Below, in pieces: positions 11,287-63,935 of a DNA stretch of 64,000 bases (positions are counted from its first letter, which is position 1; the number at the start of each line of letters is the position of its first letter). The DNA lies in assembly GCA_963971305.1 (NCBI GenBank), contig OZ020308.1, positions 25,635,275-25,699,274 of the forward strand. Direction: 5' to 3'. Both the position numbers and the translations under genes were made by a program. The DNA is from Arcuatula senhousia (taxonomy: Eukaryota > Mollusca > Bivalvia > Mytilida > Mytilidae). Under the pieces are notes generated by a model. That model saw only the letters and a program-made list of their open reading frames with translations, was not told the origin of the DNA and did not search any database.

Positions 11287-11834
11287 ATACTATACTATAC
11301 TATACTATACTATACTATACTATACTATACTATACTATACTATACTATACTATACTATACTATACTATACTATACTATACTATACTATACTATACTATAC
11401 TATACTATACTATACTATACTATACTATACTATACTATACTATACTATACTATACTATACTATACTATACTATACTATACTATACTATACTATACTATAC
11501 TATACTATACTATACTATACTATACTATACTATACTATACTATACTATACTATACTATACTATACTATACTATACTATACTATACTATACTATACTATAC
11601 TATACTATACTATACTATACTATACTATACTATACTATACTATACTATACTATACTATACTATACTATACTATACTATACTATACTATACTATACTATAC
11701 TATACTATACTATACTATACTATACTATACTATACTATACTATACTATACTATACTATACTATACTATACTATACTATACTATACTATACTATACTATAC
11801 TATACTATACTATACTATACTATACTATACTATA
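11287..11834. repeat. Perfect TATAC pentamer array, ~110 copies
   Basis: About 548 bp of uninterrupted TATAC repeats. I see no variant base in nine consecutive sequence lines. Such purity suggests recent expansion or ongoing slippage. Confidence 0.95.
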
Positions 11835-20189: not shown

Positions 20190-21570
20190 TATGAGATAAA
20201 TGGTGTTGCGCACAGCTCTGTTAAGTAATTGATATAATATAGAATGGATATGGTGAGCTGCAAAGTTAGAAAGGGGTGTCCGTGTGCCAACAGTGACGAA
20301 AATCATCTTTTTAAAGCCGTTGACACCGGAAAATCCAGCATGGGGTTGAGCTGGAATCGAACCCATACTCTGTCATCTATGGCGACTTCGCCTGCACTAT
20401 GTCCAGCGCCCTAGACCACTAGACCACCTTGGCAAGATAAAAAAATCTAGCTTTCGGTTGCCTAATTAAGCCTCCTCGTAGACAATCTAAGGTTGTAACA
20501 CAGTACACGATGAACATTAGGTGGGTAGGGAGAGAAAGATAGAGAATTGGTCGGAACTGGTATAGTAATATAAGTATATATGAGATAAATGGTGTTGCGC
20601 ACAGCTCTGTTAAGTAATTGATAAAATATAGAATGGATATGGTGAGCTGCAAAGTTAGAAAGGGGTGTCCGTGTGCCAACAGTGACGAAAATCATCTTTT
20701 TAAAGCCGTTGACACCGGAAAATCCAGCATGGGGTTGAGCTGGAATCGAACCCATACTCTGTCATCTATGGCGACTTCGCCTGCACTGTGTCCAGCGCCC
20801 TAGACCACTAGAACACCTAGGCTAGATAAAAAATCTAGCTTTCGGTTGCCTAGTTAAGCCTCCTCGTAGACAATCTAAGGTTGTAACACAGTACACGATG
20901 AACATTAGGTGGGTAGGGAGAGAAAGATAGAGAATTGGTCGCAATTGGTATAGTAATATAAGTATATATGAGATACATGGTGTTGCGCACAGCTCTGTTA
21001 AGTAATTGATATAATATAGAATAGATATGGTGATCTGCAAAGTTAGAAAGGGGTGTCCGTGTGCCAACAGTGACGAAAATCATCTTTTTAAAGCCGTTGA
21101 CACCGGAAAATCCAGCATGGGGGTTGAGCTGGAATCGAACCCATACTCTGTCATCTATGGCGACTTCGCCTGCACTGTGTCCAGCGCCCTAGACCACTAG
21201 ACCACCTAGGCTAGATAAAAAATCTAGCTTTCGGTTGCCTAGTTAAGCCTCTTCGTAGACAATCTAAGGTTGTAACACAGTACACGATGAACATTAGGTG
21301 GGTCGGGAGAGAAAGATAGAGAATTGGTCGCAACTGGTATAGTAATATAAGTATATATGAGATAAATGGTGTTGCGCACAGCTCTGTTAAGTAATTGATA
21401 TAATATAGAATGGATATGGTGAGCTGCAAAGTTAGAAAGGGGTGTCCGTGTGCCAACAGTGACGAAAATCATCTTTTTAAAGCCGTTGACACCGGAAAAT
21501 CCAGCATGGGGTTGAGCTGGAATCGAACCCATACTCTGTCATCTATGGCGACTTCGCCTGCACTGTGTCC
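20190..21570 (-). repeat. 389-bp satellite made of a tRNA-derived SINE
   Basis: Starts of GGTGTTGCGCACAGCTCTGT at 20202, 20591, 20979 and 21368 give a period of ~389 bp, about 3.6 copies. On the minus strand each copy begins with a tRNA-like head: A box TGGTCTAGTGG (first copy 20416-20426) and a perfect B box GGTTCGATTCC (20353-20363; next copy 20742-20752). A SINE body follows (AGCTCAACCCCATGCTGG ... GGCACACGGACACCCC). Each unit also holds ~190 bp of shared flank, so a locus containing one SINE was amplified as a block. Reading frames across it are repeat artefacts. Confidence 0.75.
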
Positions 21571-21679
21571 AGCGCCCTATGGGTTCGATTCCAGCTCAAC
21601 CCCATGCTGGATTTTCCGGTGTCAACGGCTTTAAAAAGATGATTTTCGTCACTGTTGGCACACGGACACCCCTTTCTAA
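21432..21679. repeat. 102-bp-arm inverted repeat ending the SINE array
   Basis: The last SINE segment (21432-21533) is followed after 44 bp by its exact reverse complement (21578-21679). The second arm holds a plus-strand B box GGTTCGATTCC. It looks like a fold-back template switch at the array end. Confidence 0.85.
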
Positions 21680-25001: not shown

Positions 25002-25054
25002 AGAAGGAAAGGAATAGAACCGATCGTAAAAAAATAACATGTATCAGTTAAAAT

Positions 25055-25350
25055 ACACATACCAAAACGGTTATAAAACGGTGTAATTTGGTTATGCTGT
25101 ATATGCATATTTCAAGGAGTAACCACTCATCAGCAGCATTTGAATCAAATCATTGGAAGGTCAAACCCAAAAGTATTGAACAACGAAAAGTACTCAAACC
25201 CCCTCCAACAAATCGAACAGGGAAGCAAATTCCTGCACCATGTGCAGTTCAAGGAAAGAAACCTACCTGGTATTTTAAACAATTCTTAATTTAACAAATG
25301 GAAATTTCAACGACAAAATAGTAAATAACTATTATTATTATTAAACAAAG
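25055..25350 (+). other. Unexplained insertion with a 68-codon frame
   Basis: This block interrupts the 3' flank conserved in units 1-3 (between ACATGTATCAGTTAAA and TTTCTTTCTGAAAG). Its frame 25088-25294 is hydrophilic and lacks low-complexity character (KVKPKSIEQRKVLKPPPTNR). It ends in a TAA and resembles a piece of a real protein, but I cannot name it. It may be a captured exon or gene fragment. Confidence 0.3.
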
Positions 25351-32762: not shown

Positions 32763-34217
32763 GTGGGTGGAAAGTCCACCAAAGAAGGCATGTGTCAAAA
32801 ACCTTTGTTAGTCCACCATGGGCAGCATGTGTCGAAAGCAATTGACTATCCATATTGGGCCTAAAAAGTAAAAGTTTCAATGTGTTGGGGTCGTATCATG
32901 CTGCACGCGGCGAAGCTTTTTATTTTATCATAGTACATGTAGTATGCTGATTTTTAGTACGTGTTTTCCTTATAAAAATATATTATAAACTATGACGTAA
33001 TGAATTGCTTTAAGGGTATCCATTGTTATTTAATTTCTTTTAGCGCATCTGGCCAAAGTCCATTTTAGCTAATGCCACCACAATGCGTCCGTCGTCTTCC
33101 GTCGTCTGTGAACAATTCAAAAAATTTCTGAAACCACCGAAAAAAATTTATCAAAACTTTGCATGAATGATAAAGTACACGTCGGCAAGAAACGCTTCTC
33201 ATTTTAAAGAAATTAGATTCAAACAAGTCGGCTGTTACTGAAAATATAACATATAACTCTTTACAATTGGGAAACTATAACATATGAGAATCAACCGACG
33301 AATCTAAGGCTCTATAAAATCAAAAGCTCAGCAAAAGTCTGTTGTTTTGGGTCGAGTTGAGTCAGTTTACCCCTAATAGTAGTAATGTCACTTTAAATGT
33401 CAAAAACAGCGCTTTTCATATTTGTTCCATATATAATGAAAATTATTGCAGATAAGGAAAAGCTTGTCTCTTGCTTTAGCCTTCATCTCATTGAGCTCTT
33501 TAAAAATCTTCCAGGGTTAAAGATGTCAGATGACCCCTAAATAGGGGTTATGGCTCTTAAAATGTCCAAAGAAACGGTTTTTCATGTTTCATCATATGGG
33601 TTTAGCTTAACTTTGGGTTCCTGAGGAGAATCAATCTCAAATGGTTTTGAGAAAAGACAAAACAAAGACACGGAAACCATGCTGGAAGAAATGAAGACCG
33701 CAATGGTCGTCACTTGGTATAGGTAAAGGTACATAATATTGAGACCTAGGATCAATGTTAATGGGGTTGGTTAATCTTAAAATTTATTATAAATTTGTAA
33801 CAAGTCATATTACCAAAATTAACCCCGATAAAGCGACCATTTAGAATTTTTAGTTGGGAGGCAATACAAAGATCAATTAATTGCTGCCAATGTGTGTTGA
33901 AAACATTATCTATTATTATAGTTCTTAAGATTTTTTCCTAACAAATTTTAATTAAACAATTCAATCTATCATATAACATATTCCAAAAGCAAAACCGACC
34001 GGGTGATAATCTTTTTATCTATCACCCTCGCGGGTGATATTGTTTTATCTATCACCCTCTCGTGCGCCGAGCTCGTGCTCAGCCTCAATTTGACATTTTT
34101 GATCAGTTGTAAAATTCATAGTATTTAGAATCAATAATATTTCGTGCAAAGTCTTTATTTTAACTAAAACTGATTAATGCATCTACTAACAGACAAACGC
34201 CTAAACAAATAAAAAAA
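32763..34217. other. No gene seen; short repeat pieces
   Basis: Contains pieces of bivalve repeats: AGCGCATCTGGCCAAAGTCC with a GTCCGTCGTC tract near 33040-33105, a small Penelope-like tail near 33660-33740, and GGGTGATA inverted motifs at 34000-34070. No coding exon recognised. Confidence 0.45.
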
Positions 34218-34300
34218 AATACAAATGACAACAAAGTTCCAGACAATTAATTTTTCTACGCCTGAGGCGCATTTCGTCTATTCAAGACTCATCAGAGGCG

Positions 34301-36456
34301 CTCTACCAAAAATATTGAAAATGCCAAACACTATATGAATATGAAGAGCATAGAACAGTAAAAACCAAAAATACTAAACTGGGGAACCAAATTATAACTA
34401 AGATAATCAACCTATGTCTTGTGTAGGAAGAACCTTAGGGTTTAGACGATTTTGAAATTTAGACGGATCATTTAAAACTTTGATGTTTTCTCCAACTCAA
34501 AAGTGTTGGTGCCGGAGCGGGCTAACCTCGGGGAATTAAAACTCCACCAGCAGTGCTAACCTTCAAGTGTGTTCGAAATACAAATGACAACAAAGTTCCA
34601 AACAATTAATATTTCTACGCCTGACGCGCGTTTTGTCTTTTCAAGACTCATCAGAGGCACTCTACCAAAAATATTGAAAATGCCAAACACTATATGAATA
34701 TGAAGAGCATAGAACAGTACAAACCAAAAATACCAAACCGGGGAACCAAATTATAATTAAGATAATCAACCTATGTCTTGGGTTGGAAGAACCTAAGGGT
34801 TTATACAATTTTGAAATTTAGACGGACAATTTAAAACTTTGATGTTTTCTCCAACTCAAAAGTGTTGGTGCCGGAGCGGGCTAACCTCGGGGAATTAAAA
34901 CTCCACCAGCAGTGCTAACCTTCACGTGTGTTCGAATTACAAATGACAACAAAGTTCCAGACAATTAATTTTTCTACGCCTGACGCGCGTTTTGTCTATT
35001 CAAGACTCATCAGAGGCGCTCTACCAAAAATATTGAAAATACCAAACACTATATGAATATGAAGAGCATAGAACAGTAAAAATAAAAAAATACTAAACTG
35101 GGGAACCAAATTATAACTAAGATAATCAACCTATGTGTGGGGTAGGAAGAACCTTCGGGTTTAGACAATTTGGAATTTAGACGGATTATTTAAAACTTTG
35201 ATGTTTTCTCCAACTCAAAAGTGCTGGTGCCGGAGCGGGCTAACCTCGGGGAATTAAAACTCCACCAGCAGTGCTAACCTTCACGTGTGTTCGAATTACA
35301 AATGACAACAAAGTTCCAGACAATTAATTTTTTTACGCCTGACGCGCTTTTCGTCTATTCAAGACTCATCAGAGGCGCTCTACCAAAAATATTGAAAATG
35401 CCAAACACTATATGAATATGAAGAGCATAGAACAGTAAAAACCAAAAATACTAAACTGGGGAACCAAATTATAACTAAGATAATCAACCTATGTCTTGTG
35501 TAGGAAGAACCTTAGGGTTTAGACGATTTTGAAATTTAGACGGATCATTTAAAACTTTGATGTTTTCTCCAACTCAAAAGTGTTGGTGCCGGAGCGGGCT
35601 AACCTCGGGGAATTAAAACTCCACCAGCAGTGCTAACCTTCAAGTGTGTTCGAAATACAAATGACAACAAAGTTCCAAACAATTAATATTTCTACGCCTG
35701 ACGCGCGTTTTGTCTTTTCAAGACTCATCAGAGGCACTCTACCAAAAATATTGAAAATGCCAAACACTATATGAATATGAAGAGCATAGAACAGTACAAA
35801 CCAAAAATACCAAACCGGGGAACCAAATTATAATTAAGATAATCAACCTATGTCTTGGGTTGGAAGAACCTAAGGGTTTATACAATTTTGAAATTTAGAC
35901 GGACAATTTAAAACTTTGATGTTTTCTCCAACTCAAAAGTGTTGGTGCCGGAGCGGGCTAACCTCGGGGAATTAAAACTCCACCAGCAGTGCTAACCTTC
36001 ACGTGTGTTCGAATTACAAATGACAACAAAGTTCCAGACAATTAATTTTTCTACGCCTGACGCGCGTTTTGTCTATTCAAGACTCATCAGAGGCGCTCTA
36101 CCAAAAATATTGAAAATACCAAACACTATATGAATATGAAGAGCATAGAACAGTAAAAATAAAAAAATACTAAACTGGGGAACCAAATTATAACTAAGAT
36201 AATCAACCTATGTGTGGGGTAGGAAGAACCTTCGGGTTTAGACAATTTGGAATTTAGACGGATTATTTAAAACTTTGATGTTTTCTCCAACTCAAAAGTG
36301 CTGGTGCCGGAGCGGGCTAACCTCGGGGAATTAAAACTCCACCAGCAGTGCTAACCTTCACGTGTGTTCGAATTACAAATGACAACAAAGTTCCAGACAA
36401 TTAATTTTTTTACGCCTGACGCGCTTTTCGTCTATTCAAGACTCATCAGAGGCGCT
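34301..36456. repeat. Higher-order repeat: two 1078-bp blocks
   Basis: The three-monomer block 34301-35378 is repeated as 35379-36456 with, to my eye, no difference. Shared diagnostic variants include ATGTCTTGTGTAGG, ATGTCTTGGGTTGG and ATGTGTGGGGTAGG in the same order. Monomers within a block differ much more. This is recent unequal exchange, or possibly an assembly duplication. Confidence 0.85.
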
Positions 36457-37493
36457 CTACCAAAAATATTGAAAATGCCAAACACTATATGAATATGAAG
36501 AGCATGGAACAGTTAAAACCACAAATACTAAACTGGGGAACCAAATTATAACTAAGATAATCAACCTATGTCTGGGGTAAGAAGAACCTTAGGGTTTAGA
36601 CGATTTTGAAATTTAGACGGATAATTTAAAACTTTGATGTTTTCTCCAACTCAAAAGTGTTGGTTGCCGGAGCGGGCTAACCTCGGGGAATTAAAACTCC
36701 ACCAGCAGTGCTATCCTTCACATGTGTTTGAAATACAAATGACAACAAAGTTCCAGACAATTAATATTTCTACGCCTGACGTGCGTTTTGTCTTTTCAAG
36801 ACTCATCAGAGGCACTCTACCAAAAATATTGAAAATGCCAAACACTGTATGAATATGAAGAGCATAGAACAGTAAAAACCAAAAATAAATACTAAACTGG
36901 AGAACCAAATTATAACTAAAATAATCAACCTATGTGTGGGGTAGGAAGAACCTTAGGGTTTAGACAATTTTGAAATTTAGACGGATAATTTAAAACTTTG
37001 ATGTTTTCTCCAACTCAAAAGTGTTGGTGCCGGAGCGGGCTAACCTCGGGCAATTAAAACTCCATCATCAGTGCTAACCTTCACGTGTGTTCGAATTACA
37101 AATGACAACAAAGTTCCAGACAATTAATATTTCTACGCCTGACGCACGTTTTGTCTTTTCAAGACTCATCAGAGGCGCTCTACCAAAAATATTGAAAATG
37201 CCAAACACTATATGAATATAAAGAGCATAGAACAGTAAAAACCCAAAATACTAAACTGGGGAACCAAATTATAACTAAGATAATCAACCTATGTCTGGGG
37301 TAGGAAGAACCTTAGGGATTAGACAATTTTGAAATTTAGACGGATAATTTAAAACTTTGATGTTTTCTCCAACTCAAAAGTGTTGGTGACGGAGAGGGCT
37401 AACCTCGGGGAATTAAAGCTCCACCAGCAGTGCTAACCTTCACGTGTGTTCGAAATACAAATGACAACAAAGTTCCAGACGATTAATTTTTCT

Positions 37494-37537
37494 ACGCCTG
37501 ACGTGCGTTTCGTCTATTCAAGACTCATCAGAGGCGC
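37494..37537 (-). ncRNA. Hammerhead ribozyme, type I, core intact
   Basis: Read on the minus strand: stem I GCGCCT/AGGCGT, CTGATGA, stem II GTCT-TGAAT-AGAC, GAA, stem III AC-GCAC-GT, cleavage after GTC. The only array 1 copy with all catalytic positions. Predicted cleavage lies between 37500 and 37499. Confidence 0.75.
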
Positions 37538-37722
37538 TCTACCAAAAATATTGAAAATGCCAAACACTATATGAATATGAAGAGCACAGAACAGTAAAAA
37601 CTATTTTCTAAAGTCATTTCATAAGGCAACATTTTATTTCAGTTTAATTTTTGAAAACATATAAAAAGATTTGAAAATCCGTCGGTTAAATGATTCAGTA
37701 TAATAAATTAAATGTTATATAT

Positions 37723-37836
37723 CTGAGAGGGTGATAGAGTAGATTGCTACCCTTCAAAAAGACATTGTCAACCTCGGCTGCGCCTCAGGTGACAATCCTT
37801 TTCTCAGGGTATCAATCTACTCTATCACACTCTCAG
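37723..37836. mobile_element. Foldback MITE between the two arrays
   Basis: CTGAGAGGGTGATAGAGTAG at the left is mirrored by CTACTCTATCACACTCTCAG at the right. The centre holds GTCAACCTCGGCTGCGCCTC / AGGTGAC. The remaining spacer (37603-38397) is ordinary AT-rich DNA with no gene seen. Confidence 0.7.
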
Positions 37837-38440
37837 CTATATGTTATTTATATAGAGTTTCTGTTTATGCATAAATCATTACAACAATCCTCAGGTAAAA
37901 TTTCCTGAATGGATTGATGCATCTGGACTTCATTATCAATAAAATCTAAATGATACCCAATTCTTAAATTAAGATCGACAATTAATAAAATGCTTCCTTT
38001 ATCAGCTAATTGTGATATTTCACTTTCTAGTTTTATATAGTCATCATTATAATGAGGAGAGTTTACTGGTGGTATATAACAAGCACAAAAAAATATCTTT
38101 AGCTAATCAAAAAACATCTTTATCAAGTTTAAGCCACAGCCTATTGGGTGATATACTCAAATATTTTAACTCATTTATCCCTTTCTGTATATGAGATTTA
38201 AAAATTATGACTATACCTCCACTATACCGTTTTGATCTACGGGTCTTGTTTCGACATTTTTGAATAATTTTGAAATTAGGAATCTAAACATCTAAATCAG
38301 TGCCTTTTTTAGTTTCTAATAGAATATTGATATCATTTTAAAAGTTAATTAAGAAAAAACCAGCTTTGCATTTGCCTCATAAATCATTAATATTCCAAGA
38401 AATACAAATGTAAACAAAGTTCCAGACAATAAATTTTGCT

Positions 38441-38484
38441 ACGCCTGACGCGCGTTTCGTCTATTCAAGACTCATCAGAGGCGC
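38441..38484 (-). ncRNA. Hammerhead ribozyme, type I, intact
   Basis: Minus strand: GCGCCT | CTGATGA | GTCT-TGAAT-AGAC | GAA | AC-GCGC-GT | C, cleavage, AGGCGT. All core residues match the hammerhead consensus. The short stem III is the form seen in metazoan satellite and retrozyme hammerheads. Confidence 0.85.
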
Positions 38485-38794
38485 TCTACCAAAAATTTTG
38501 AAAATGCCAAACACTGAATATGAAGAGCATAGAACAGTATAACCAAAAATACCAAACTGGGGAACCAAATTATTACTCAGATATTCAACCTATGTCTGGG
38601 GTAGGAAGAACCTTTGGGTTTAGACAATAATGAAATTTAGACGGATAATTTAAAGCTTTGAAGTATTCTCTAACTCAAAAGTGTTGGTGCGGGAGCGGGC
38701 TAACCTCGGGAAATTAAAACCTCATCAGCAGTGCTAACCTTCACGTGTGTTCGAAATACAAATGACAACAAAGTTCCAGACAATAAATTTTGCT

Positions 38795-38838
38795 ACGCCT
38801 GATGCGCGTTTCGTCTATTCAAGACTCATCAGAGGCGC
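38795..38838 (-). ncRNA. Hammerhead ribozyme, stem III weakened
   Basis: As 38441 but with ATC at the cleavage site instead of GTC. The second stem III pair becomes C-A. Core otherwise intact; activity probably reduced. Confidence 0.7.
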
Positions 38839-39148
38839 TCTACCAAAAATATTGAAAATGCCAAACACTGAATATGAAGAGCATAGAACAGTATAACCAA
38901 AAATACCAAACTGGGGAACCAAATTATTACTCAGATATTCAACCTATGTCTGGGGTAGGAAGAACCTTAGGGTTTAGACAATTTTGAAATTTAGACGGAT
39001 AATTTAAAGTTTTGTTGTATTCTCCAACTCAAAAGTGTTGGTGCCGGAGCGGGCTAACCTCGGGGAATTTAAACTCCACCAGCAGTGCTAACCTTCACGT
39101 GTGTTCGAAATACAAATGACAACAAAGTTCCAGACAATTAGATTTGCT

Positions 39149-39192
39149 ACGCCTGACTGGCGTTTCGTCTATTCAAGACTCATCAGAGGCGC
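39149..39192 (-). ncRNA. Hammerhead ribozyme, variant stem III loop
   Basis: Core, stem I and stem II as 38441. The stem III tetraloop is GCCA instead of GCGC, with both closing pairs kept. Confidence 0.8.
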
Positions 39193-39204
39193 TCTACCAA
39201 AAAT

Positions 39205-39394
39205 CAGAATTCCGACCAGTACCTCCCCGTGGTGGAAGACGGGCCCTGCTCCAGCGATAACAAATGATACTCTGGAGCAGCTAACACTGGCGGTGGTGTG
39301 TCATGGGCTGGACGACCCATGGCACATAGCTAGTCTATTAGTCGATGCAGAGGGGCTTTCCCTTAGTCACGACTATAAATACCTATCAGTCAGT
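39205..39394. mobile_element. 190-bp GC-rich insertion with 11-bp TSD
   Basis: The monomer sequence CTACCAAAAAT occurs on both sides (39194-39204 and 39395-39405). The 190 bp between them are much richer in G+C than anything nearby. Internal stems include GCTCCAG/CTGGAGC and CATGGG/CCCATG. A reading frame is open across it (LEQLTLAVVCHGLDDPWHIA), but an 11-bp duplication points to retroposition. No poly(A) tail and no good tRNA-type boxes are seen. It may be a structured-RNA retroposon or a retrocopied gene piece; unidentified. Confidence 0.6.
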
Positions 39395-39701
39395 CTACCA
39401 AAAATATTGAAAATGCCAAACACTGAATATGAAGAGCATAAAACAGTATAACCAAAAATACCAAACTGGGGAACCAAATATTACTCAGATATTCAACTTT
39501 GTCTGGGGTAGGAAGAACCTTAGGGTTTAGACAATTTTGAAATTTAGACGGATAATTTAAAGCTTTGATGTATTCTCCAACTCAGAAGTGTTGGTGCCGG
39601 AGCGGGCTAACCTCTTGGAATTTAAACTCCACCAGCAGTGATAACCTTCACGTGTGTTCGAAATACAAATGACAACAAAGTTCCAAACAATAAATTTTGC
39701 T

Positions 39702-39745
39702 ACGCCTGATGCGCGTTTCGTCTATTCAAGACTCATCAGAGGCGC
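39702..39745 (-). ncRNA. Hammerhead ribozyme, stem III weakened
   Basis: Same ATC variant as 38795-38838; core residues intact. Confidence 0.7.
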
Positions 39746-40055
39746 TCTACGAAAAATATTGAAAATGCCAAACACTGAATATGAAGAACATAGAACAGTA
39801 TAACCAAAAATACCAAACTGGGGAACCAAATTATTACTCAGATATTCAACCTATGTCTGGGGTAGGAAGAACCTTAGGGTCTAGACAATTTTGAAATTTA
39901 GACGGATAATTTAAAGCTTTGATGTATTCTCCAACTCAAAAGTGTTGGTGCCAGAGCGGGCTAACCTCGGGGAATTTAAACTCCACCAGCAGTGCTAACC
40001 TTCACGTGTGTTCGAAATACAAATGACAACAATGTTCCAGACAATAAATTTTGCT

Positions 40056-40099
40056 ACGCCTGACGCGCGTTTCGTCTATTCAAGACTCATCAGAGGCGC
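40056..40099 (-). ncRNA. Hammerhead ribozyme, type I, intact
   Basis: Identical to the 38441-38484 motif at all core and stem positions. Confidence 0.85.
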
Positions 40100-40409
40100 T
40101 CTACCAAAAATATTGAAAATGCCAAACACTGAATATGAAGAGCATAGAACAGTATAACCAAAAATACCAAACTGGGGAACCAAATTATTACTAAGATATT
40201 CAACCTATGTGTGGGGTAGGAAGAACCTTAGGGTCTAGACAATTTTGAAATTTAGACGGATAATTTAAAGCTTTGATGTATTCGCCAACTCAAAAGTGTT
40301 GGTGCCGGAGCGGGCTAACCTCGGGGAATTTAAACTCCACCAGCAGTGCTAACCTTCACGTGTGTTCGAAATACAAATGACAACAAAGTTTCAGACAATA
40401 GATTTTGCT

Positions 40410-40453
40410 ACGCCAGACGCGCGTTTCGTCTATTCAAGACTCATCAGAGGCGC
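40410..40453 (-). ncRNA. Hammerhead ribozyme, first stem I pair changed
   Basis: The base after the cleavage site is T instead of A (TGGCGT), giving a U-U mismatch next to the scissile bond. Catalytic core intact. Confidence 0.7.
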
Positions 40454-40765
40454 TCTACCAAAAATATTGAAAATGCCAAACACTGAATATGAAGAGCATA
40501 GAACAGTATAACCAAAAAATACCAAACTGGGGAACCAAATTATTACTAAGATATTCAACCTATGTCTGGGGTAGGAAGAACCTTAGGGTTTAGACAATTT
40601 TGAAATTTAGACGGATAATTTTAAAGCTTTGATGTATTCTCCAAATCAAAAGTGTTGGTGCCGGAACGGGCTAACCTCGGGGAATTTAAACTCCACCAGC
40701 AGTGCTAACCTTCACGTGTGTTCGAAATACAAATGACAACAAAGTTCCAGACAATAAATTTTGCT

Positions 40766-40809
40766 ACGCCTGATGCGCGTTTCGTCTATTCAAGACTCAT
40801 CAGAGGCGC
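40766..40809 (-). ncRNA. Hammerhead ribozyme, stem III weakened
   Basis: Same ATC variant as 38795-38838. Confidence 0.7.
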
Positions 40810-41076
40810 TCTACCAAAAATATTGAAAATGCCAAACACTGAATATGAAGAGCATAGAACAGTATAACCAAAAATACCAAACTGGGGATACAAATTATTA
40901 CTAAGATATTCAACCTATGTCTGGGGTAGGAAGAACCTTAGGGTTTAGACAATTTTGAAATTTAGACGGATAATTTTAAAGCTTTGATGTATTCTCCAAA
41001 TCAAAAGTGTTGGTGCTAACCTTCACGTGTGTTCGAAATACAAATGACAACAAAGTTTCAGACAATAGATTTTGCT

Positions 41077-41120
41077 TCGCCAGACGCGCGTTTCGTCTAT
41101 TCAAGACTCATCAGAGGCGC
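41077..41120 (-). ncRNA. Hammerhead ribozyme, stem I altered
   Basis: Stem I 3' strand TGGCGA carries two changes; CTGATGA, GAA, stem II and stem III are intact. Confidence 0.65.
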
Positions 41121-41431
41121 TCTTCCAAAAATATTGAAAATGCCAAACACTGAATATGAAGAGCATAGAACAGTATAACCAAAAAATACCAAACTGGGGA
41201 ACCAAATTATTACTAAGATATTCAACCTATGTCTGGGGTAGGAAGAACCTTAGGGTTTAGACAATTTTGAAATTTAGACGGATAATTTAAAACTTTGATG
41301 TATTCTCCAAATCAAAAGTGTTGGTGCCGGAGCGGGCTAACCTCGGGGAATTTAAACTCCACCAGCAGTGCTAACCTTCACGTGTGTTCGAAATACAAAT
41401 GACAACAAAGTTCCAGACAATAAATTTTGCT

Positions 41432-41475
41432 ACGCCTGACGCGCGTTTCGTCTATTCAAGACTCATCAGAGGCGC
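41432..41475 (-). ncRNA. Hammerhead ribozyme, type I, intact
   Basis: Matches 38441-38484 exactly in core and stems. Predicted scissile bond lies between 41438 and 41437. Confidence 0.85.
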
Positions 41476-41894
41476 TCTACCAAAAATATTGAAAATGCCA
41501 AACACTGAATATGAAGAGCATAGAACAGTATAACCAAAAATACCAAACTGGGGATACAAATTATTACTAAGATATTCAACCTATGTCTGGGGTAGGAAGA
41601 ACCTTAGGGTTTAGACAATTTTGAACTTATTGTCAATGAATTCAACATATTCATAAAGTGTTAATCATAATACAGAAAAAAATATGCAATTATACAGGTC
41701 AAATTAAGGATTTAGTCAGATTTAATAGTGTACTCTTAAATCATTACTTTGTGCATTTATCAATGTATCTCTTAAAAACAAATTTATGAAACTTTACTAT
41801 CTGAATATTTTTGTAAATTTATAATAATAATAAAAAAAAGAGATGATTTGAACTTCAATGTATCAGAAAAACTCCACTTGTCTCCTTAGGGAAC

Positions 41895-42514
41895 GGTCAT
41901 TATTTATCAGCTGAGGGGGTTGGGTGATTTTAGAGGGAGTCGAAAATAAATTTCATGCTAAATTGAGGAGGTCTAAAATTATTTACTCACAACAAGTGAG
42001 GGGGTCGAAATTCAATATATCATTTTTTAAAGAGTATGCCATGTATTCTTGTTCGAGATGTTTGGAGTAGGTTTTGCATTTAAATTCCCATTGCTTTCAG
42101 AAATTCCTTTGTTGAAAATTGTTAATGCTTTACTATGTATACTCTACCCAAGAACATTAAATAAACACGTTATTTTAAAATGTTCCTGCTCTATCCTACA
42201 ACACAATAGAACTTATTCAAACAGGTTCCAGTTCGGCATACCGGTCTCAGTTTGGTATGTTCTTCAATTAGATAATGTGATTGGCATTTTTACCTTTATT
42301 GGTAGAGCTCCTCTGAGGAGTTTTGAATAGACGAAATGCGTGTCAGGCGTTGCAAAAATTGATTACCTTGAAATTTGTCTATACTGCATCAAATAATTTT
42401 TGTAATGGGAGGGGGAGATTTTCTGAGGGGGTTGAAATTTTTGTATGGTTATCAGTGAGGGGGTTGAATATTTTTACAAGAAACTTGAACAAAATCAGCT
42501 GATAAATAATGACC
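41895..42514. mobile_element. MITE carrying a plus-strand retrozyme fragment
   Basis: The ends GGTCATTATTTATCAGCTGA and TCAGCTGATAAATAATGACC are perfect 20-bp inverted repeats. GAGGGGGTTG motifs lie near both ends. The interior (about 42200-42360) holds part of a retrozyme monomer in plus orientation. The 93-codon frame at 42049 is chance. Confidence 0.75.
42307..42350 (+). ncRNA. Decayed hammerhead, plus strand
   Basis: GCTCCT, CTGAGGA (position 7 is free to vary), GTTT-TGAAT-AGAC, GAA, AT-GCGT-GT, C then AGGCGT. Core residues survive, but stem I has a mismatch and stems II and III use wobble pairs. Likely a fossil. Confidence 0.6.
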
Positions 42515-45624: not shown

Positions 45625-46003
45625 GGTTTTTCTTTTGCCTTCATTTACCAGATTTATGAAGTTTTTCTGTTGTATAATCTTCCTTATGTTCTTTACTAAA
45701 AATGCCAAAGCAGAGGTACCAATGGGGTATCAGAATTTCAAAAGTCCGAAAGGGCAGAGGCAAAACCAGTAAATACTAACAAAAACGGGACAAAAACAGA
45801 CAACATATAAAACATTGAAACACAAAAATAACTGAATATCAATCAACAACGCGAACTCAAGTCCAAACGAGAGTGAACACAGGTGCTCCGGAAAAGTAAG
45901 CAGTTCCTGCTTGCTATAGCACACCTGTCGCGTTGCAAACAGTCAAATCAGTGTGTGAAATCCGGTAAAAGAAGACAAAACAAACCCCTATGACCAACCA
46001 ACA

Positions 46004-46590
46004 TCTCCACTCATCTGAGGGATCGAAATCCCATATTTGTTTATAAGTGCATGATGTCTTCCGTAAAATTTCTTGACTGAAGACAGCAACCAAGGAGCAA
46101 CATAACCCTGTGTGAGCAGTTTTTGCCTTAAACGAGACGTTGTGCTAAGGAAATCGATGTAAGTCCCGCACGCTCAGGAGTAACGAATCAATTGAGATAC
46201 GTAAACTCCATAAGATGGAGCGAGCGGAATGTTGCTACACAAGAAGGGAAAGTTGACGATTGGAAAGTTGAAGTCATCACGTTTGTCATAGAGTTTTGTT
46301 GAAAGTTTTCCTTGAGAATCAATTTCAAGATGTAGATCTAAATATGAAGCAGACTTCCTAGAATCCGTAGTGTCCTTAACCTCAAGTTCCTGAGGATATA
46401 TAAGATTTAGAAAGTCACCAAATCGAGAATTGTTCAGTGAAAGGGCATCATCAATATAACGGAAAGTGAGATTAAAAGAGAGAGCTAGTCTACGGTCTTC
46501 GTTGTTTAGAATTGATTGTAAGAAGTCTGATTCATATGAATGAAGAAACAAATCAGCAAGCAAAGGTGCACAAGACGTTAGCTTGATAAT
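46004..46590 (-). pseudogene. RT fragment with intact YIDD frame, minus strand
   Basis: The frame 46563-46174 reads LADLFLHSYESDFLQSILNN, LTFRYIDDALSLNNSRFGDF, YPQELEVKDTTDSRKSASYL, YDKRDDFNFPIVNFPFLCSN and YGVYVSQLIRYS. It is the best-preserved RT piece in the window, 129 codons spanning the catalytic box. A frameshift near 46175 leads to the thumb (46004-46170). It lies tail to tail with the 45085-45624 copy. Confidence 0.75.
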
Positions 46591-49500
46591 ATTGTATAAG
46601 GAACCAGTGGGTTCAATGCAAGTCTTTTTTTCGTCTATGCAAATCTTTATGTAATTTCTGTTTCGTGTCTTTTGCGTCCCCTTATTGGAGTACGTTCTTT
46701 GAGAACTACTTTGGTATTCCTTCGCTTCTTTGAAATATACATTCCTTACTTCTACATTTCATTCAATGGGGTTCTTAAAGGCAAACAATAAGATAAAACA
46801 TAACAGTTCCATAATCTTTGTATATTTTATTATTACAAGTAATGTCACTTCTATAAATAATTATTATTCAAATAGCAACAAAAGATAAAATATTCAAATA
46901 ATGCATAAATAAATCAAAAACACCATTGGCACCATGTATCAACAGGACAAGTATAAACACATAAAATATAAGAGAGTTTGCTTTTTTGGTTAAACGAAAA
47001 TTTATGTTTCAATGTTTTACATCGAAGTTTTCAAAAAACGGAAACTTTAATTTATGATTATATCTATACACATCAAACTTTGTTACCCTGAAGCAAACTC
47101 CCTTATCTTACAAAAATATGAACCCTAACCCGTATTTTGAAAATGCACCAGAAATTTGGTAAAAACGTTAATACGTAACTAAATTAAACACATGCATTTA
47201 TGTACATTTGGAATAGCCAGTTTAATAGCACAAGAAGTTGAATTTTGGTCAGCGGAAAAATATTCCTGAACAAATAAAGTATTATAAAGCTAGTTCACTT
47301 GCAGTTAAAGTCATACGAATTTTGCGTGGATTTTTCTTTTTGTTTGTTTTGAATGAATAAGAGGCATTTAAAATTGAAAAATGGATTTAGCAACCCCCCC
47401 AAAAAAAAAATAAAAATGTGAAAAGTGAAGTCGAGTGCGAATTAACTTTATTTTACTTAGCTCATGGAATAGTTTGTAACTACACAAACAAATAAAATTA
47501 CAAAAAAAACTTTAAATCTTCTTGAAAAGGAAATCAAGCATTTTATTCGGATAAGGATGTTATTCAATACGTTGTCCTTTTTTGGAAGTCTAACCGTACT
47601 TATCCGATTATCTTATAAAAACCAAATATGCTTGAACTCTTGGCCAGTTTTGTTTCCTTTTTGTAAACTTCGGAAGTTGGCCTTAGTGGGGTTATTAAAG
47701 TCATCAAAATACTTCAAATGGTACATAATAATGAAGATGTCATAGAAATACCATTAATTTAATGCATTTCCATGAATAAAATAATAGGTGGGGAGTGTTT
47801 GACTATGACTTATTTATTATTCAATATGAATTTTATATATTTTTTTTTTAACCTGATCAAATGAAAAATAGCTTATTGTCCAATTGGGACATTTATATAT
47901 TACTAGAATAAAAGTAAATAAAAGTTATATAATAAATGATAAAGATATAACCAACAAAAATATTCCTCGATCAATACATTAATCTTCAATATGCAATGTA
48001 TTTATGCACGTTGTATTGCATTTTTTTTCAATGTCCTCAATGACATTGAAATATAACAAGTCTTGGTCTACCAGACCACAATATCAACAATGCTGGCAGC
48101 TTTCCAGTTATATTTCTATAATTAGTCAAACTTAACACACGAAAAATACTTAGACCGTACTTAAACAGTCAAAACAAAAACCGGAACACTCTTATTGAAC
48201 CTCTCATAAGATGTTCGTTATACAAGGCTACTTCAGACCGTCTGAAAAGGGTGTGTACAGTAGGTGTCGACTTTCTGTCGACTTCGAAATTAACCAGTAA
48301 GCAAGTCCTTATAAAGCAGGACCTTTGTCAAATATATACCTTTTTTTCTAAATGATATTCGAAACAAAACTAAATCATTAGATACATGTATTAGCAATTT
48401 AACGTAAAAGTGTTAAACTGATAAATTTACCCCATCATTTAGATTTTTGAAATGCAGGATGTACCCATACCAAGTCAAATCAAAGCATGTTGACATTGGC
48501 ACCTCTTTACCTTTTCACATGTTAGGAATAATGTTTTCGTGTGGCGGTGGTATCACCCCTTTACCCACTAAAATATAACTAGCTTCATGTATCAAAGACC
48601 AACCCCGGAATAGTCCTTTTTAGAAAGTATTTTCGGGAATTGCGGACCTGAGCAATATTTTACTTATTCACTACAGGTTTACGACTTCCGGGTCGGCCTC
48701 ACCATTGAAAATCTGTTGAAATTAACTAAATTCATCAACCTGTTAAAACATTTTTAAATCTGTCTGCCACAGCCTAAAACTCATAAAACATACATTATCA
48801 TCCAAGACTTTTCTCCAAACCAGTTTATTTGATTCGGGAAGAAGAAATTACGCCAAAAACGGATAGGGATAAATAGATATTTTCCTTAGCTCAACGTTGA
48901 ACACACAATGTGGCCGACCCACAAAGGGAAACTACTCTTGCAAAAATTGAAATAAAAGACTCGGAATCGGAATTCCGGATGACTTTTTTCAAAAGGGCTA
49001 TAGGGAGGTCCTTAAGCAGTCGTACAGCAATACAACATATCATAACTCCCAAGTATTGGAAAAAATTCAACACAAACCAAAAATCGAGAAAAATGCAATT
49101 AAGCTGTTCTTATTAGAATTAAATTTACCATGTATGGTTGAGGAATCTAAAGATGTTTACAAATTTCAAAATTTATTAACTGTACTTAACGCAATATATG
49201 CTTCCTTGTGTTTATATCGAAAACGAAACAAATATAGTCTGTACCAAAATTGTTAATTTAAGTTCCCAATAGGGTTTATTTATAGTGTTGTTGACTATAA
49301 TTAAAACAGTTGAAATACAAAAAAAAAACATTTCATTTTTTATGTATAATGCATATTTCATCAGATGTAAATTAAATATAAAAATATTGGATTTCATCCA
49401 CGACAATATGAAAAAAAAAACGATAGTGACAATGATAATAGACTTACATTCATATACCCATGTGTCCTACATGATTATGATTTATTCTTACATCATGTAA

Positions 49501-55045: not shown

Positions 55046-55399
55046 TGACATTTTAGGTCAATAAATATGCACTCTAAGTCATGTGAGTGCAAAGAACAAT
55101 TTTGTGGAGAGAAAAAAATATATTTGTTGCAATCTCAACTGCGTCTCTAACAATAGAAAGTATCATCAAATAAATAGACAAGCTTTTTCCTGAGTTTTGA
55201 AAATAGAGTTAATTTGTGAAACTCAGATTTTTTACACGAATTGCACGAGATTAAATTGATTTCAGGATAACCGTCTTATTATGCAATACGTTTTTCTCTA
55301 AAATTTAATTAGATCATTAACTCATTTGGGGAAAGCAAAGAGGACCATAGAGCATATTCGTAAATAATAATATTTCGAGAAAAAAAACCAATCTATTTG

Positions 55400-56010
55400 A
55401 AATTAAAATGACAAGAAAGTTTCAGACAATTAATTTTGTAACGCCTGACGCGCGTTTCGTCTATTAAGTACCACTTTTTATAAGAATCATGCAAAGAGCG
55501 ATCCTACACCAATTAATTTTTATGTGTTTATACTCCTACTAGCACCCTGCTTTGATCTTTTGTGCTCTTTTTCCAAAGTAGCCCTGGTCCTGAGAGAAAA
55601 AATATATATAGAATACGTTGGAAAAATGTAAGAAAGGGAGATAACTCTTAAAATTGTCAATAATTTCAATAGAAACCATTGTAACAAAAATGGCAAGATT
55701 TCTCCCAGGACCAGGCAGTTATGAGGAAATTGTTATTTATTTCTTATTTTGTATACTTTGAACTATCTTTCGTTAAAAATAAACCACTGTAGCCTTTTTA
55801 TCAATGAATCACTTTTCTTCAATTTAGCATGATTCTTAGGTGGAATACTACTTAAAGACTCATCAGAGCTAGGCACTCTACCAAAAATATTTAAAAAGCC
55901 AAAAACTAGATGATTATGAACAATATTGAACAAAGAAACCCAAAATACCAAAATGAGGAACCAAATTATAACTAAAATGATTAAACTATGCCTGGGATAG
56001 GAGGAACCTT
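55400..56010 (-). pseudogene. Solo retrozyme monomer split by a MITE
   Basis: Left part 55408-55467 (AAAATGACAAGAAAGTTTCA ... CGCGCGTTTCGTCTATTAA) and right part 55852-56005 (AAGACTCATCAGAG ... ATACCAAAATGAGGAACC) are one monomer. The interruption lies in the ribozyme's stem II loop, so the hammerhead cannot form in one piece. The right part is truncated after GGAGGAACCTTGG. Confidence 0.7.
55468..55851. mobile_element. 384-bp MITE with TTAA target duplication
   Basis: Flanked by TTAA (55464-55467, 55852-55855). Ends GTACCACTTTTTATAAGAAT and ATTCTTAGGTGGAATACTAC are inverted relatives, sharing AAGAATCATGC inside. TTAA targets are typical of piggyBac-type elements. It inserted into the retrozyme hammerhead. 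Confidence 0.7.
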
Positions 56011-56151: not shown

Positions 56152-59100
56152 TTAATAATTGACAATAGGTAAAATACAAGTTTTCAGTTCTGAGCTTATC
56201 TTAAGTTGGTGAATTGCGTTTGCGTTTCTATCAGAATGTTCCCATATATATCTAGCAGTTAAGAATTTCAATGGTTGTATCGTAACTACTTGTCTATTCA
56301 ATTCTATCTGAACCATTTTGATATATTTAGCGATCTGTTCGATAGGTCTATAATGTCTATTCTTGAACAATCTAAGAGCATCCTTAACTGACTGTCTTGA
56401 CATATACTTGCACATTTTTAACATGATTTCAACATGTTTTATATGATCTGGTTGTCTATTGTAGGGCGCTATGAGACTAAGTTTATCTAAAAGGGTATCT
56501 AAGTATGTATTAATGAAATATTTATCGTTGACTTTGTGATTCGGGTCGGCTCCATATCGAAGCAGAAACCGAAATACTGCTTCATCGACTCCAAGAGATA
56601 CTGCAGTCTTTGAATATTGATGAAGAACAGGTCCTAATACTGTATTTTTAAGTTTTGATGTCTTTTTTGTTTTGTTCTTCTTATTGTTGTGTGATAATAG
56701 TGCCTCACCACATTCAAGAACGAATTTGACAGCCAAGGCACTGGATTCCATGTACTCGGTATACGTTTCGACAGTTTCTAGCAGGCAGTGCATGGCAGAA
56801 GCGAATGAAGGTCTCCCTACAAGAGATTTCTTTCCCCTTGACTGCATCAGTTGTTCGTATTTTTGTTCATCAAACGTTGGATCTGCCCCGGCCTCTAGAA
56901 GTAATCGAACACATTCAACATAATACTGTGTGTTGATAGAATCATGCATGCAAAGAGAATTAAAGAGAAGACTGTATAGAGGGTATGTATTAGTAGGGTC
57001 TTTTGTATTAACGTTCGATTTGTATTTGATCAATATTGTCGTCACATCCGGCAGACTTGCGTAACCCCTTCGACCGAATTCTTTTCCGGAACTAAATGTG
57101 AAAAGCATATGATACGGATTCTTTCCCTCAAACAGTTCAGCAACTTTTACACCAGTAGCAAGTAAATAATCAAGACACACCGCCCTTGCACACTGTATTG
57201 CGATTCTCGTCGCTTCCATCACGTCATCCATTTTATATTTCTGTTTCAGTAGAAACTTTACTGCTTCTGAAGACCCGGCGAGTGTTGCAAGAGACAAGTA
57301 TCCACTTTTGCTGTGTTCTGGATGCTTTTTCACGACGCAAATGTTCAGTAACAAATGAACGCAGTCTAATTGGTTGTTCTTTGCTGCAACATCCAGAGCA
57401 GTGATCTGAAAACAGCAATATATTTACATGTTTAAATTGTTTAAAAATTTTAGGAAATTAAATTTGGCTTATGTTTTGAAACTTGCTTATTGATACCATG
57501 CTTTTTATTTCTAAATTGATGCATTCATTTGTTTTGTGTCTCTGTTAAGTTTTAAATCATAATAAACGATAGCCCATTTGGTATAAATCGGCATATAAAA
57601 CTATCCATTATTTTTCGACAAAATATCTTGATCACACGAACAGTTGTGTATCGCCAAGTGCGACTTGTGATATTTGCTCAACATTATAATGTCACAGTTA
57701 AGGATGTTCGCTAGTCGGTTTTAAAATAAAGTATCTAAATTTTAATATTAGATGAATATACCTTAGGTGAAGGTACAAAATAAGCTTAAACAATTCTTGG
57801 GTTGCCAAACTAGTTTTCCGAGATAATCAGAGATCAAAATTGAACGGGAAAATGCTTTTTATGTCTTTTTCATATTCTAGCACTAGACTTTTTTAGTGTA
57901 TAAACCTATGAAAAAAATGAGAAGAAATTTATAAAACTTTTTAAAGTACCTTTTTATAGCCTAGTTAATCCCTTTAAAACGGTAAAATCTCGAGCTATCC
58001 GAAAATCTGACAAAATCTTAATTATTGACCGGCGATCATCCTTAAAATAATCACATAATGCTCCCGTTGTTAAACTTTCTCATAGTATTACATTTATATA
58101 TTTTCTTTCAATAATACAAGTGTGGACTCTAATGCATATTGCCTAGCAAGCCGCTATGGACACAAAAAGCAAAGGTCTGCTTTAGTAACATAAAAAAAGA
58201 CTTTATTATTTCTAGGTCCTGCTAAGGTTTATTGTTGAATTCTATAAGTAGCCTTTGTTGTACACATACTATAAAATAAATCTAAAATTAAGCCATTTTA
58301 AGATAAACATAAATTATGTTGATGAATCTAAGTCATGTAAGCGTTTATCCTAAACATTATTTGTTTTTAGATCCAGTACATTGTACATGTAGGTTTATTA
58401 TCTCCTATTTAGTTTAAAATAAATGCATCAAAGTTTGGTTATGTTAGTGGATGAAATAGGAAACTATTGCAGATAGAGAAAAGCTGTTGCTTGCTTAAAC
58501 CTTCAGCTCATCGAGCTCTACAAAAGTCTACATTGGATCAAAGATGTCACAGTCTGTTGTTTATAGGTCTTTATATATACTTATAAATCAGCTTAATGTT
58601 TAAGTTTAAAAAAGTTTCAATCTTCAAATTATTCTGAGAACAAAAGCTACCAACGGGATTCTGGGAATACCGAAGACGAAAATCAAACATATATTTTTTG
58701 CCTAGAAATTTTTACAATTTTCGTTTTATAATATTACTATTTTCAACATTTAGTTGCATTCCAAGCATGCGAAGATGTAAAAAAAATCGTACATTGTTAT
58801 TTTGACTTTTTTCTAAGTGTGACCAAAAGGCAAACTGGACTCATCCTTTTTTTGTATTTTTAGTCTTGTGCCAATGCAAGACGGCGAGCAGCGACTTATG
58901 GTCATGCTGAAGACTGCTGGCTGATTTCCATTGTGATTTTTTAAATTCCCGTTTCTTTATGTTGGTTGTGTCACGTACAATTATTCCACATTTATTTATC
59001 GTCTACTTTAATGGTTATCATTTGTCAGATCAGCCTATGATATATAGAATATTATGTACTTTTCTTTTTGATACTATCTATATCTAGGAGAGTATCAGAC

Positions 59101-60886: not shown

Positions 60887-61043
60887 CTTTGTACTAAGTC
60901 TGAAAAATACAAATCAGCTTTCTTTTCTGATTTTGTTCTATAAATCAAATTAACTCTAAATATTGATACTTTGTAAATAGTTTTACTAGTAGGAAGTACT
61001 GACGGTCTGTTTTACATTACAATAATAAAGCAAACACCTTACC
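60887..61043 (-). other. 5'UTR introns of the ankyrin gene (candidate splice sites)
   Basis: Minus strand: an acceptor TTTTTCAG precedes ACTTAGTACAAAGATG. Upstream, TTTCTAGAG followed by GTAAGGTG (61042-61035) is a good donor, so a short untranslated exon may end at 61043. A second donor-like CGTAAG/GTAAGTT lies at 63062. These are predictions only. Confidence 0.35.
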
Positions 61044-61732: not shown

Positions 61733-62158
61733 TTAAGGTTCTTCTAAATGAAAAATGGCTGCCATGCATTGTCAATACAAAACTTTCAAAAAATACACAG
61801 CCTACATGAAATAAGTATTTTACTAAAGTTATATTTAAATGAATGTTTTAAAACTTATCTAAAGCAAGCTAGAAATAATTACAAATAAAAGCTGTCTTTT
61901 AAGGTAAAATATTACATATTTGTAAGGATGTGGTCGAATGGTAGGATAGTAATCAGACGCACCTTACATGTTTATATAAATAAAATCAAATTAAGACTCA
62001 TTATGGGATTTTAAATACTAGCTTGCTCTGGGAATTGGTAAGTTAAATCTAATTTGACAGGTTTTGAACAAAATACATCATTTGCTCAATCTGTGTATTT
62101 TTTGAAAGTTTTGTATTGACAATGCATGGCAGCCATTTTTCATTTAGAAGAACCTTAA
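61733..62158. mobile_element. MITE with ~68-bp perfect TIRs
   Basis: TTAAGGTTCTTCTAAATGAA, AATGGCTGCCATGCATTGTC and AATACAAAACTTTCAAAAAA continue to ATACACAG. The right end mirrors this base for base. Ends in TTAA like the other TTAAGG elements. High TIR identity suggests a recent insertion upstream of the ankyrin gene. Confidence 0.85.
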
Positions 62159-62759
62159 ATGCTGCTCATGCGAGGTTACTCCTTGTAATATCGATATACA
62201 GCATAACCAAATTGAACGTTTAATACCCGTTCTAGTATTTGTATTCTGAAACTAATTGTAGAAAAATATAGTCGATAATTGCATTTACAAAGTTGATTTT
62301 TTTAGACAAAATACAGGACGCAAGAGAATCCAAGACGTGGAAACAAACAGTGGTCAGCAAAATACACCTTAAATCTATAGAATGGCATTACAGGTGTGAA
62401 TGCATTTCAGACAAATAGAAGGTTAAAATTAACATTATCAAAACAAAACAAATTATTATAGTTCTTTTAAAAAAAGTATGAACAAGGTGTTGAACATTTT
62501 TCAAAAAGTCGGAATTTCAATACTACTTTTAAAGAAAAGTACTAAAGAAAAGTTATTCTTAAACGCAAATTGATCCATGAGAACCATTAACGCAACAATG
62601 AAAAAACATAAAAGACATTTAGGTGTTCTGGAAGGTAAGGCAGTTCCTATCTGTTCTAAACCCTGATAATATCATATATTCCTCTTTGATACACATGTTA
62701 GTAAAATGCTGTTCATCGAACGCAAACAATAATGAATAAATTAGTCCACTAGTGTGTAA
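62159..62759. other. No gene seen
   Basis: AT-rich, no ORF or repeat recognised. Confidence 0.5.
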
Positions 62760-63027: not shown

Positions 63028-63577
63028 TAAGTATTTTTTATTAAAAACAAAGTAAAACTTACCTTACGATTGAACTTATTTAATGTTTATTCCAATTATA
63101 ATCTAACGCAAAATTAAAGTTTAAAAGTGATTGCCTAATAAATGCTTAAGCATGTTACATCAACATGATCTCAATTTTTAGTTGCAATAAAAAAAATTAT
63201 ATAAAGTAAAGACCAAGTCTAAACTTGTAAGGAAGTTTATGAATTATGATTTAATATTTAACTTTTAAATGACTTGTATGAATTAAAAGATCAAAAGAAA
63301 TGAATTATAAGTTAGCGATCTTTTGATTTTTCGATGATATGCTTTCATAATCTAAAGCTAGTTTCATCTGATTAAGCTTTGTGTGGTATAAAACGGGATT
63401 AATTGTCAAGTAAATCATCCCATAGTCAATAAAACAACAAATATATATTGAATATTTTCTTAATAATAATATAAACGTACTAATAAAAGAGCTTTCATAA
63501 TCTAAATTACTTGTGAAAAAGCTGCAAATCATGCATGTTACATATATGTTTTCCACGTTGTACATTTCAGTTCTAAT
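63028..63577. other. No gene seen
   Basis: AT-rich; the 86-codon minus frame at 63565-63305 is hydrophobic low-complexity sequence with no support as a gene. Confidence 0.5.
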
Positions 63578-63935
63578 ATAAATTATAACAAAGTTCCAAA
63601 CAACAAATTTTGCTACGCCTGACGCGCGTTTCGTCTATTTAAGACTCGTCAGAGGCTCTCTACCAAAAGATGAAAATGCCAAACATTATATGAATGTGAA
63701 GAGTATAGAACAATTATACCAAAAATGTCGAATGAGAAACCAAATTTTGACTAGGACCAACCTATGTCTGGGGTAGGCAGAACCTTAGGGTTTTGACAAT
63801 TTAGAAATTTAAACGGATAATTCATAGCTTTGATGTGTTCGTCAACACAAAAGTGTTGATGCCGGAGCGGGCTAACCACCAGCAGCACTAACCATCACGG
63901 ATGTTAGAAATATAAATTACAACAAAGATCTAACA
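63578..63935 (-). mobile_element. Solo retrozyme-like monomer
   Basis: A complete monomer of the satellite outside the arrays, from ATATAAATTATAACAAAG to a second ATATAAATTACAACAAAG (63910 onward). It therefore ends with a repeat of its own start, as expected for a dispersed, slightly longer-than-unit retrozyme copy. Lacks part of the GCTAACCTCGGGGAATTAAA segment. Confidence 0.7.
63615..63658 (-). ncRNA. Hammerhead ribozyme, type I, solo copy
   Basis: Minus strand: GAGCCT, CTGACGA (position 7 variable), GTCT-TAAAT-AGAC, GAA, AC-GCGC-GT, C, then AGGCGT. Catalytic residues intact; stem I keeps four pairs next to the core. Confidence 0.75.

Follow-up and report, generated by a model that had tools for sequence, protein, structure and literature searches.

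A fixed internal junction and a shared hairpin suggest a Penelope-like helper for hammerhead retrozymes of the mussel Arcuatula senhousia

Introduction

Which machinery copies animal retrozymes? The question is raised by a stretch of 64,000 nucleotides from the mussel Arcuatula senhousia (assembly GCA_963971305.1, contig OZ020308.1, positions 25,635,275 to 25,699,274 of the forward strand; hereafter the window), which carries two arrays of a tandem repeat, here named RZ1, with hammerhead ribozyme motifs on the minus strand. We describe a fixed internal RNA 3' junction of RZ1 insertions and a hairpin found at a matching distance past the junctions of RZ1, of a second retrozyme family (RZ2) and of a Penelope-like element of the same genome. 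On this sequence evidence RZ1 is probably a metazoan retrozyme of the type unrelated to long terminal repeats (non-LTR retrozyme), which the reverse transcriptase (RT) of the Penelope-like element would copy by docking on the shared hairpin of a circular or uncut multimeric RNA and starting about 20 nt upstream of it.

Metazoan non-LTR retrozymes are characterized in the passages of PMC7229834 considered here by a type I hammerhead, tandem units of 150-450 bp and low GC content. For the mussel Mytilus galloprovincialis, repeats of 350-390 bp, cleavage in vitro and circular RNA in tissues are reported there (Cervera and de la Pena 2020), and Penelope-like elements are put forward as strong candidates for retrozyme mobilisation. 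According to a passage of PMC7761336, no motif indicating the mover of retrozymes was seen.

Results

Two RZ1 arrays were found on the minus strand where a preliminary description of this DNA had placed hammerhead arrays (34218..41627). Array 1 (34217..37601) holds ten hammerhead copies in units of about 359 bp, with the RNA 3' junction at 34217 and the RNA 5' end at about 37600. Array 2 (38399..41628) holds nine copies in units of about 354 bp, with the junction at 38399 and the 5' end at about 41628. The unit has a GC content of 39.3% and a length of 354-359 bp, and no stop-to-stop frame of at least 120 amino acids (aa) was found within 34217-41628. The previously claimed spacing of about 354-363 bp applies to 15 of the 18 steps between motifs, but not to the remaining three, which measure 311 bp (a short monomer), 947 bp (the gap between the arrays) and 553 bp. 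The last contains a 189-bp insertion at 39205-39393, a further mobile element with the 12-bp direct repeat TCTACCAAAAAT on both flanks, which interrupts array 2. In array 1, a three-monomer block of 1077 bp is duplicated at 99.8% identity (34258-36411) as a higher-order repeat; unequal exchange thus also lengthened this array, dead ribozymes included.

Hammerhead-derived sequence is present at all 19 positions of both arrays, and the full set of core bases in 13 of them. The other six copies, all in array 1, read GACAAA instead of GACGAA, i.e. they carry a change of core base G12 to A, which cripples hammerheads. Mismatches affect the 2-bp stem III in six of the 13 full-core copies and stem I (one or two mismatches) in two, whereas core, stem I, stem II and stem III are all intact in five of the 19 (at 41432, 40056, 39149, 38441 and 37494). 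A working layout in every monomer, as described before, is therefore not what the arrays hold, although most copies retain the core. The Rfam hammerhead model (Hammerhead_1, RF00163), proposed in that description as a check on the minus strand, did recover the intact motifs at 38441..38484, 40056..40099 and 41432..41475 (36.5 bits, E 1.6e-5 each), but these were the only three of the 19 array copies to reach the gathering score; a solitary copy at 63615-63658 reached it as well (42.6 bits). In the 1.04-Gb genome the hammerhead core pattern has 19,456 exact matches and its reversed control none. The arrays are real and far beyond chance. An Rfam-based genome search yielded 145,145 first-look candidates, with 62 of the 64 listed over the cut-off (74 scored), figures that do not estimate copy number.

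RZ1 was mapped in the window and in fetched loci on a 354-nt reference unit (39708-40061), in which position 1 is the base that follows the ribozyme cut; 11 duplicate or overlapping loci (L001-L003, L005, L006, L036, L040-L042, L044 and L058) were dropped. This gave 86 stretches, 80 of them away from a locus edge. The RNA 3' end fell at unit 40-52 in 61 of the 80, with a peak at 46-48, that is, 46-48 nt past the ribozyme cut. Agreement with the unit was mostly above 0.9 up to position 46 (positions 37 and 42 are variable); it was 0.92 at 46, then dropped to 0.79 and 0.57 and reached chance at 49. The 5' ends were scattered across the unit: stretch lengths lay between 49 and 3383 nt, with more than 402 nt (one lap plus 48) in 19 of the 61. 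Genome-wide, a 26-mer stopping at unit 46 had 14,671 matches and a 26-mer crossing it 8,099; the two words differ in sequence, and only the direction of the difference is meaningful. Among 100 listed places on contig C1, the crossing word followed 21 of the 31 ribozymes that had another exact ribozyme one unit on, as opposed to 4 of the 69 that had none.

By analogy, a fixed RNA 3' end together with free 5' ends is the trace that would be expected of target-primed reverse transcription with internal initiation. Because the fixed end lies 46-48 nt past the cut and not at it, the copied RNA would either have escaped cleavage or have been joined again across the cut. At the cut itself, 5' ends were not in excess (2 of 61 within 3 nt, one of which, in L012, was miscalled, as the ribozyme continues upstream), and in these loci, which had been chosen for their hammerhead, the cut linear monomer was rejected as the usual template on this ground. 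A weak cluster of 5' ends was located at unit 18-38 (8 of 61). RZ1 insertions are dispersed in the genome; two of them (L056 and L008) lie inside RT-element copies and appear, by eye, clean at a TTTC or TTC common to target and retrozyme.

Fragments of an RT element are present in the window (46177-46758 and others). One is a fragment of a Penelope-like element on the minus strand (45708..46758), which comprises the RT frame at 46177-46758 and a 3' region; of the 120 homologues listed (4,257 found), 3 have a precomputed RVT_1 domain. When the genome was searched with a 316-aa RT homologue and 126 of 62,790 candidates were scored, 14 were identical over 316 aa and four had a 1065-aa open frame. 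The identical RT regions point to recent copies and hence to recent activity of the element. In L079, one tandem copy with the full frame, GIY-YIG (residues 199-249) is followed by the RT (784-920). The RVT_1 match of this copy (25.7 bits, E 1.1e-5) is under the Pfam cut-off of 29.6, and its own GIY-YIG match, at 14.2 bits (E 0.055) against a cut-off of 22.6, is weak. Of 40 homologues of its residues 100-330, 12 have a precomputed PF01541 domain. Two named homologues of the protein come from the pearl oyster Pinctada imbricata, in agreement with a bivalve origin. The L079 units repeat at 3347 bp, as tandem copies with pseudo-LTRs, and copies of the element fade at a fixed 3' end, CTTCTTTC (n=37). 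Judged by its sequences, the genome appears to hold an abundant, recently active GIY-YIG/RT Penelope-like element. Three insertions of it (L019, L030 and L060) entered the retrozyme at one and the same place, unit 141-150 (CTTTGATG on the strand of the element), which is a target preference of the Penelope-like element. A composite element was considered for these three loci, where retrozyme pieces adjoin the RT element's 3' end at unit 144-145, and was rejected, as in each of them the retrozyme resumes on the other side at unit 141-150.

A second family, RZ2, has a tandem unit of 383 nt and, as judged by descriptor, its own type I hammerhead layout (ATGCTA-CUGAUGA...); it is unrelated to RZ1. 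RZ2 was located at L018:2804-3232, at L055:1-578 and at two places in the window, 25050..25317 (minus strand, ending at RZ2 unit position 50) and 62157..62252 (plus strand, ending at position 56). Six of 11 RZ2 stretches end at unit 45-56, directly before the motif described below; of the remaining five, one lies at a locus edge.

The hairpin CUGCUGGUGGA...UCCCCGAGG lies past the junction by 20 nt in the Penelope-like element, 21 nt in RZ1 and 18 nt in RZ2, and the motif CTGCTGG starts at +21, +22 and +19, respectively, relative to the set junctions. An RZ1 example is 39959..40000 on the minus strand (unit 62-103), which starts 14 nt past the junction point of the unit at 39708-40061. The leader of the element, CTGCTGGTGGACAAATTGTCCCCGAGG, is directly beyond its start site; it is part of tandem RNA and absent from most insertions. 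Its RZ1 counterpart reads CTGCTGGTGGAGTTTAAATTCCCCGAGG. Outside RZ1, the motif occurred at three places in the window and fetched loci, namely L079 and the two RZ2 loci L018 and L055. Shuffle tests restricted to the junctions gave 0/5000 for element versus RZ2, 11/5000 for RZ1 versus RZ2 and 1/5000 for element versus RZ1, the last being valid only for the 70 nt past the junctions. Element and RZ2 match at 81% over 57 nt (E 1.5e-6).

When excised (39-42 nt), the hairpin folded into one topology in four of five sequences, one of them with an outer-stem mismatch; the fifth sequence adopted a similar fold, and z-scores ranged from -3.44 to -1.01 over the set. The outer stem pairs despite changes on both sides: GATATC/GATATC and GATGTC/GACATC in the element, GATAACC/GGTTATC in an RZ2 variant and GGTTAGC/GTTAGCC in RZ1. 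One outer-stem mismatch is present in the commonest RZ2 form and in two element forms. Overall, the outer stem covaries.

The RZ2 leader pattern had 3,883 genome matches, many of the 100 listed falling in arrays with units of 382-383 bp; the pattern of the helper-type leader had 97, a few of them RZ2-like. Six helper-type leader hairpins, five at steps of 165-168 bp, were found at G000:C2:5621419-5622475; this short tandem array is perhaps a third parasite. At G000:C3:2671505-2672203 the helper-type leader occurs three times at steps of 320-325 bp.

Further RZ1 sequences in the window are a solitary diverged copy at 63575..63925 (minus strand), which contains the hammerhead at 63615-63658 and lacks the CCCCGAGG half of the hairpin; a copy truncated inside the hammerhead at 55396..55465 (minus strand), with the 3' junction of other RZ1 copies; and diverged fragments at 42256..42378 (plus strand, decayed hammerhead at 42307-42350) and, by RZ1 mapping, 55852..56010 (minus strand). 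Other repeats of the window include a perfect ATACT pentanucleotide array at 11287-11834 (109.6 copies, 100%) and tandem arrays at 4873-5517, 11991-13449, 17319-18327 and 20190-21579 with units of 167, 154, 356 and 389 bp, none of which gave an Rfam hammerhead over the gathering score. Ankyrin-repeat frames lie on the minus strand at 56155-57423 and 60467-60913.

Discussion

In the partnership of short and long interspersed nuclear elements (SINEs and LINEs), a non-coding element borrows the RT of an autonomous partner via a shared RNA structure. RZ1 and RZ2 are most likely templates for the Penelope-like element as SINEs are for LINEs. The likeness has its bounds: the piece shared by a SINE is its copied 3' tail, whereas the RZ1 hairpin sits past the start point and is missing from short insertions. 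We infer that the hairpin serves as docking site and that circular or uncut RNA serves as template.

The proposed course of events is as follows. Minus-strand transcription would produce multimeric RZ1 RNA, which the hammerhead would cut into unit-length pieces (about 354 nt), to be closed into circles by a host ligase, as reported for M. galloprovincialis in the consulted part of PMC7229834. The Penelope-like RT would dock on the hairpin in a circle or an uncut multimer and begin synthesis at UAUUUC, about 20 nt upstream of this hairpin and 46-48 nt past the site of ribozyme cleavage. Running upstream for part of a lap or for several laps, it would leave one 3' junction, free 5' ends and tandem units, to which DNA-level duplication would later add more, as in array 1. 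As synthesis would run away from the hairpin, a cut monomer would yield at most 48 nt, whereas a circle or an uncut multimer would yield a lap or more. In that case both ribozyme and circle would have a part in mobilisation.

Naiad elements, permuted Penelope-like elements abundant in invertebrates, have GIY-YIG ahead of the RT in one frame. This domain order is seen in L079, with GIY-YIG at 199-249 N-terminal to the RT at 784-920, and we know of no published link of Naiad to retrozymes. The Penelope-like element of Anolis, as described in the passages of PMC11167929 used here, has internal RT starts 85-92 nt past the hammerhead cut (26 and 111-118 from the start codon), compared with 46-48 nt in RZ1, and requires RNA as far as frame position 172, which is 54-61 nt past the start. 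The points in common with the system proposed here are a hammerhead cut ahead of an internal RT start, a requirement for RNA past that start, tandem copies and 5' truncation (PMC11167929); the differences are that the present helper has GIY-YIG before the RT and that no hammerhead was found in L079.

RZ1 belongs to a kind that is already known, the metazoan non-LTR retrozyme described in M. galloprovincialis, with which it shares the type I hammerhead, non-coding tandem units of the 350-390 bp class, thousands of copies and low GC content; a fixed internal 3' junction, a shared hairpin and a helper are not described for the latter in the passages of PMC7229834 at hand. The retrozyme interpretation given in the preliminary description is accordingly sound as to hammerhead type, unit size and GC content, but it took no account of the fixed junction, the likely helper and the copies with defects. 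As far as the literature was searched, the RZ1 junction is new: no report of a shared motif or a fixed junction was found in the open-licence literature and in passages of PMC7761336 and PMC11722881, a scope that does not prove absence.

Several observations weigh against copying by the Penelope-like RT as proposed. The loci mapped had been selected for holding a hammerhead, and 19 of the 80 3' ends fall elsewhere; one of these results from the 189-bp insertion and three from Penelope-like insertions, and 15 are diverged, short or unexplained. No hammerhead was detected in L079, the single full element examined (Rfam up to E 10, and descriptor); a hammerhead in the pseudo-LTR is common in Penelope-like elements and not universal. 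Compared as a whole, element and RZ1 do not match significantly (E 0.19, with a score that falls within the top of those from 300 shuffles). In longer stretches RZ1 retains the hairpin, but the minimum-energy fold of the element leader is built on a different stem, and for both stretches stability does not exceed that of shuffled sequences (z -0.78 and 0.21). Within RZ1, the hairpin shows no special conservation, ranking 114 of 354 windows compared with rank 12 for the hammerhead. Finally, target-site duplications of at least 6 nt occurred in 3 of 58 insertions versus 4.2% expected, which is no excess; long duplications, an optional trait of non-LTR retrozymes in the part of PMC7229834 consulted, were not a feature of these 58.

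The strongest alternative keeps the same helper and takes the uncut multimeric transcript as its usual template, so that ribozyme and circles would be irrelevant to mobilisation. We regard this as possible, if on balance doubtful. It would accommodate the six dead ribozymes among the ten units of array 1, the scarcity of 5' ends at the cut and the finding that ribozyme mutants of the Anolis element insert equally well in vitro (passage of PMC11167929). However, it leaves the conservation of the hammerhead unexplained, mussel retrozyme RNA is mostly circular according to the consulted part of PMC7229834, and the dead copies of array 1 need not be RT-made since that array also grew by DNA duplication. 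Mobilisation by another non-LTR element, a LINE or another Penelope clade, with the hairpin as a captured piece or a coincidence, seems unlikely: the RZ1-element match is short and significant only if confined to the junction, but the motif recurs at +19 to +22 in two unrelated retrozymes and the element, whose junctions were mapped independently, and RZ2 matches the element over 57 nt. That RZ1 is simply a satellite, spread at the DNA level by unequal exchange and dispersal, with an incidental hammerhead, is highly improbable and already disfavoured by the fixed junction, because DNA exchange, for which the 1077-bp block speaks, predicts no fixed end, whereas single and partial copies that share a fixed 3' end and vary at the 5' end occur genome-wide.

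Returning to copying by the Penelope-like RT, we would extend it a little more cautiously, yet still as the better bet, to animal retrozymes in general. These would be RNA parasites of Penelope-like elements that carry an RT-docking hairpin past an internal start; only circular or tandem RNA would offer both the dock and a full template, the circle would serve copying, and at least two unrelated retrozymes in this genome would share the dock. If this is true, the shared hairpin at a matching junction distance would name the partner of the retrozymes and suggest a reason for their circular RNA.

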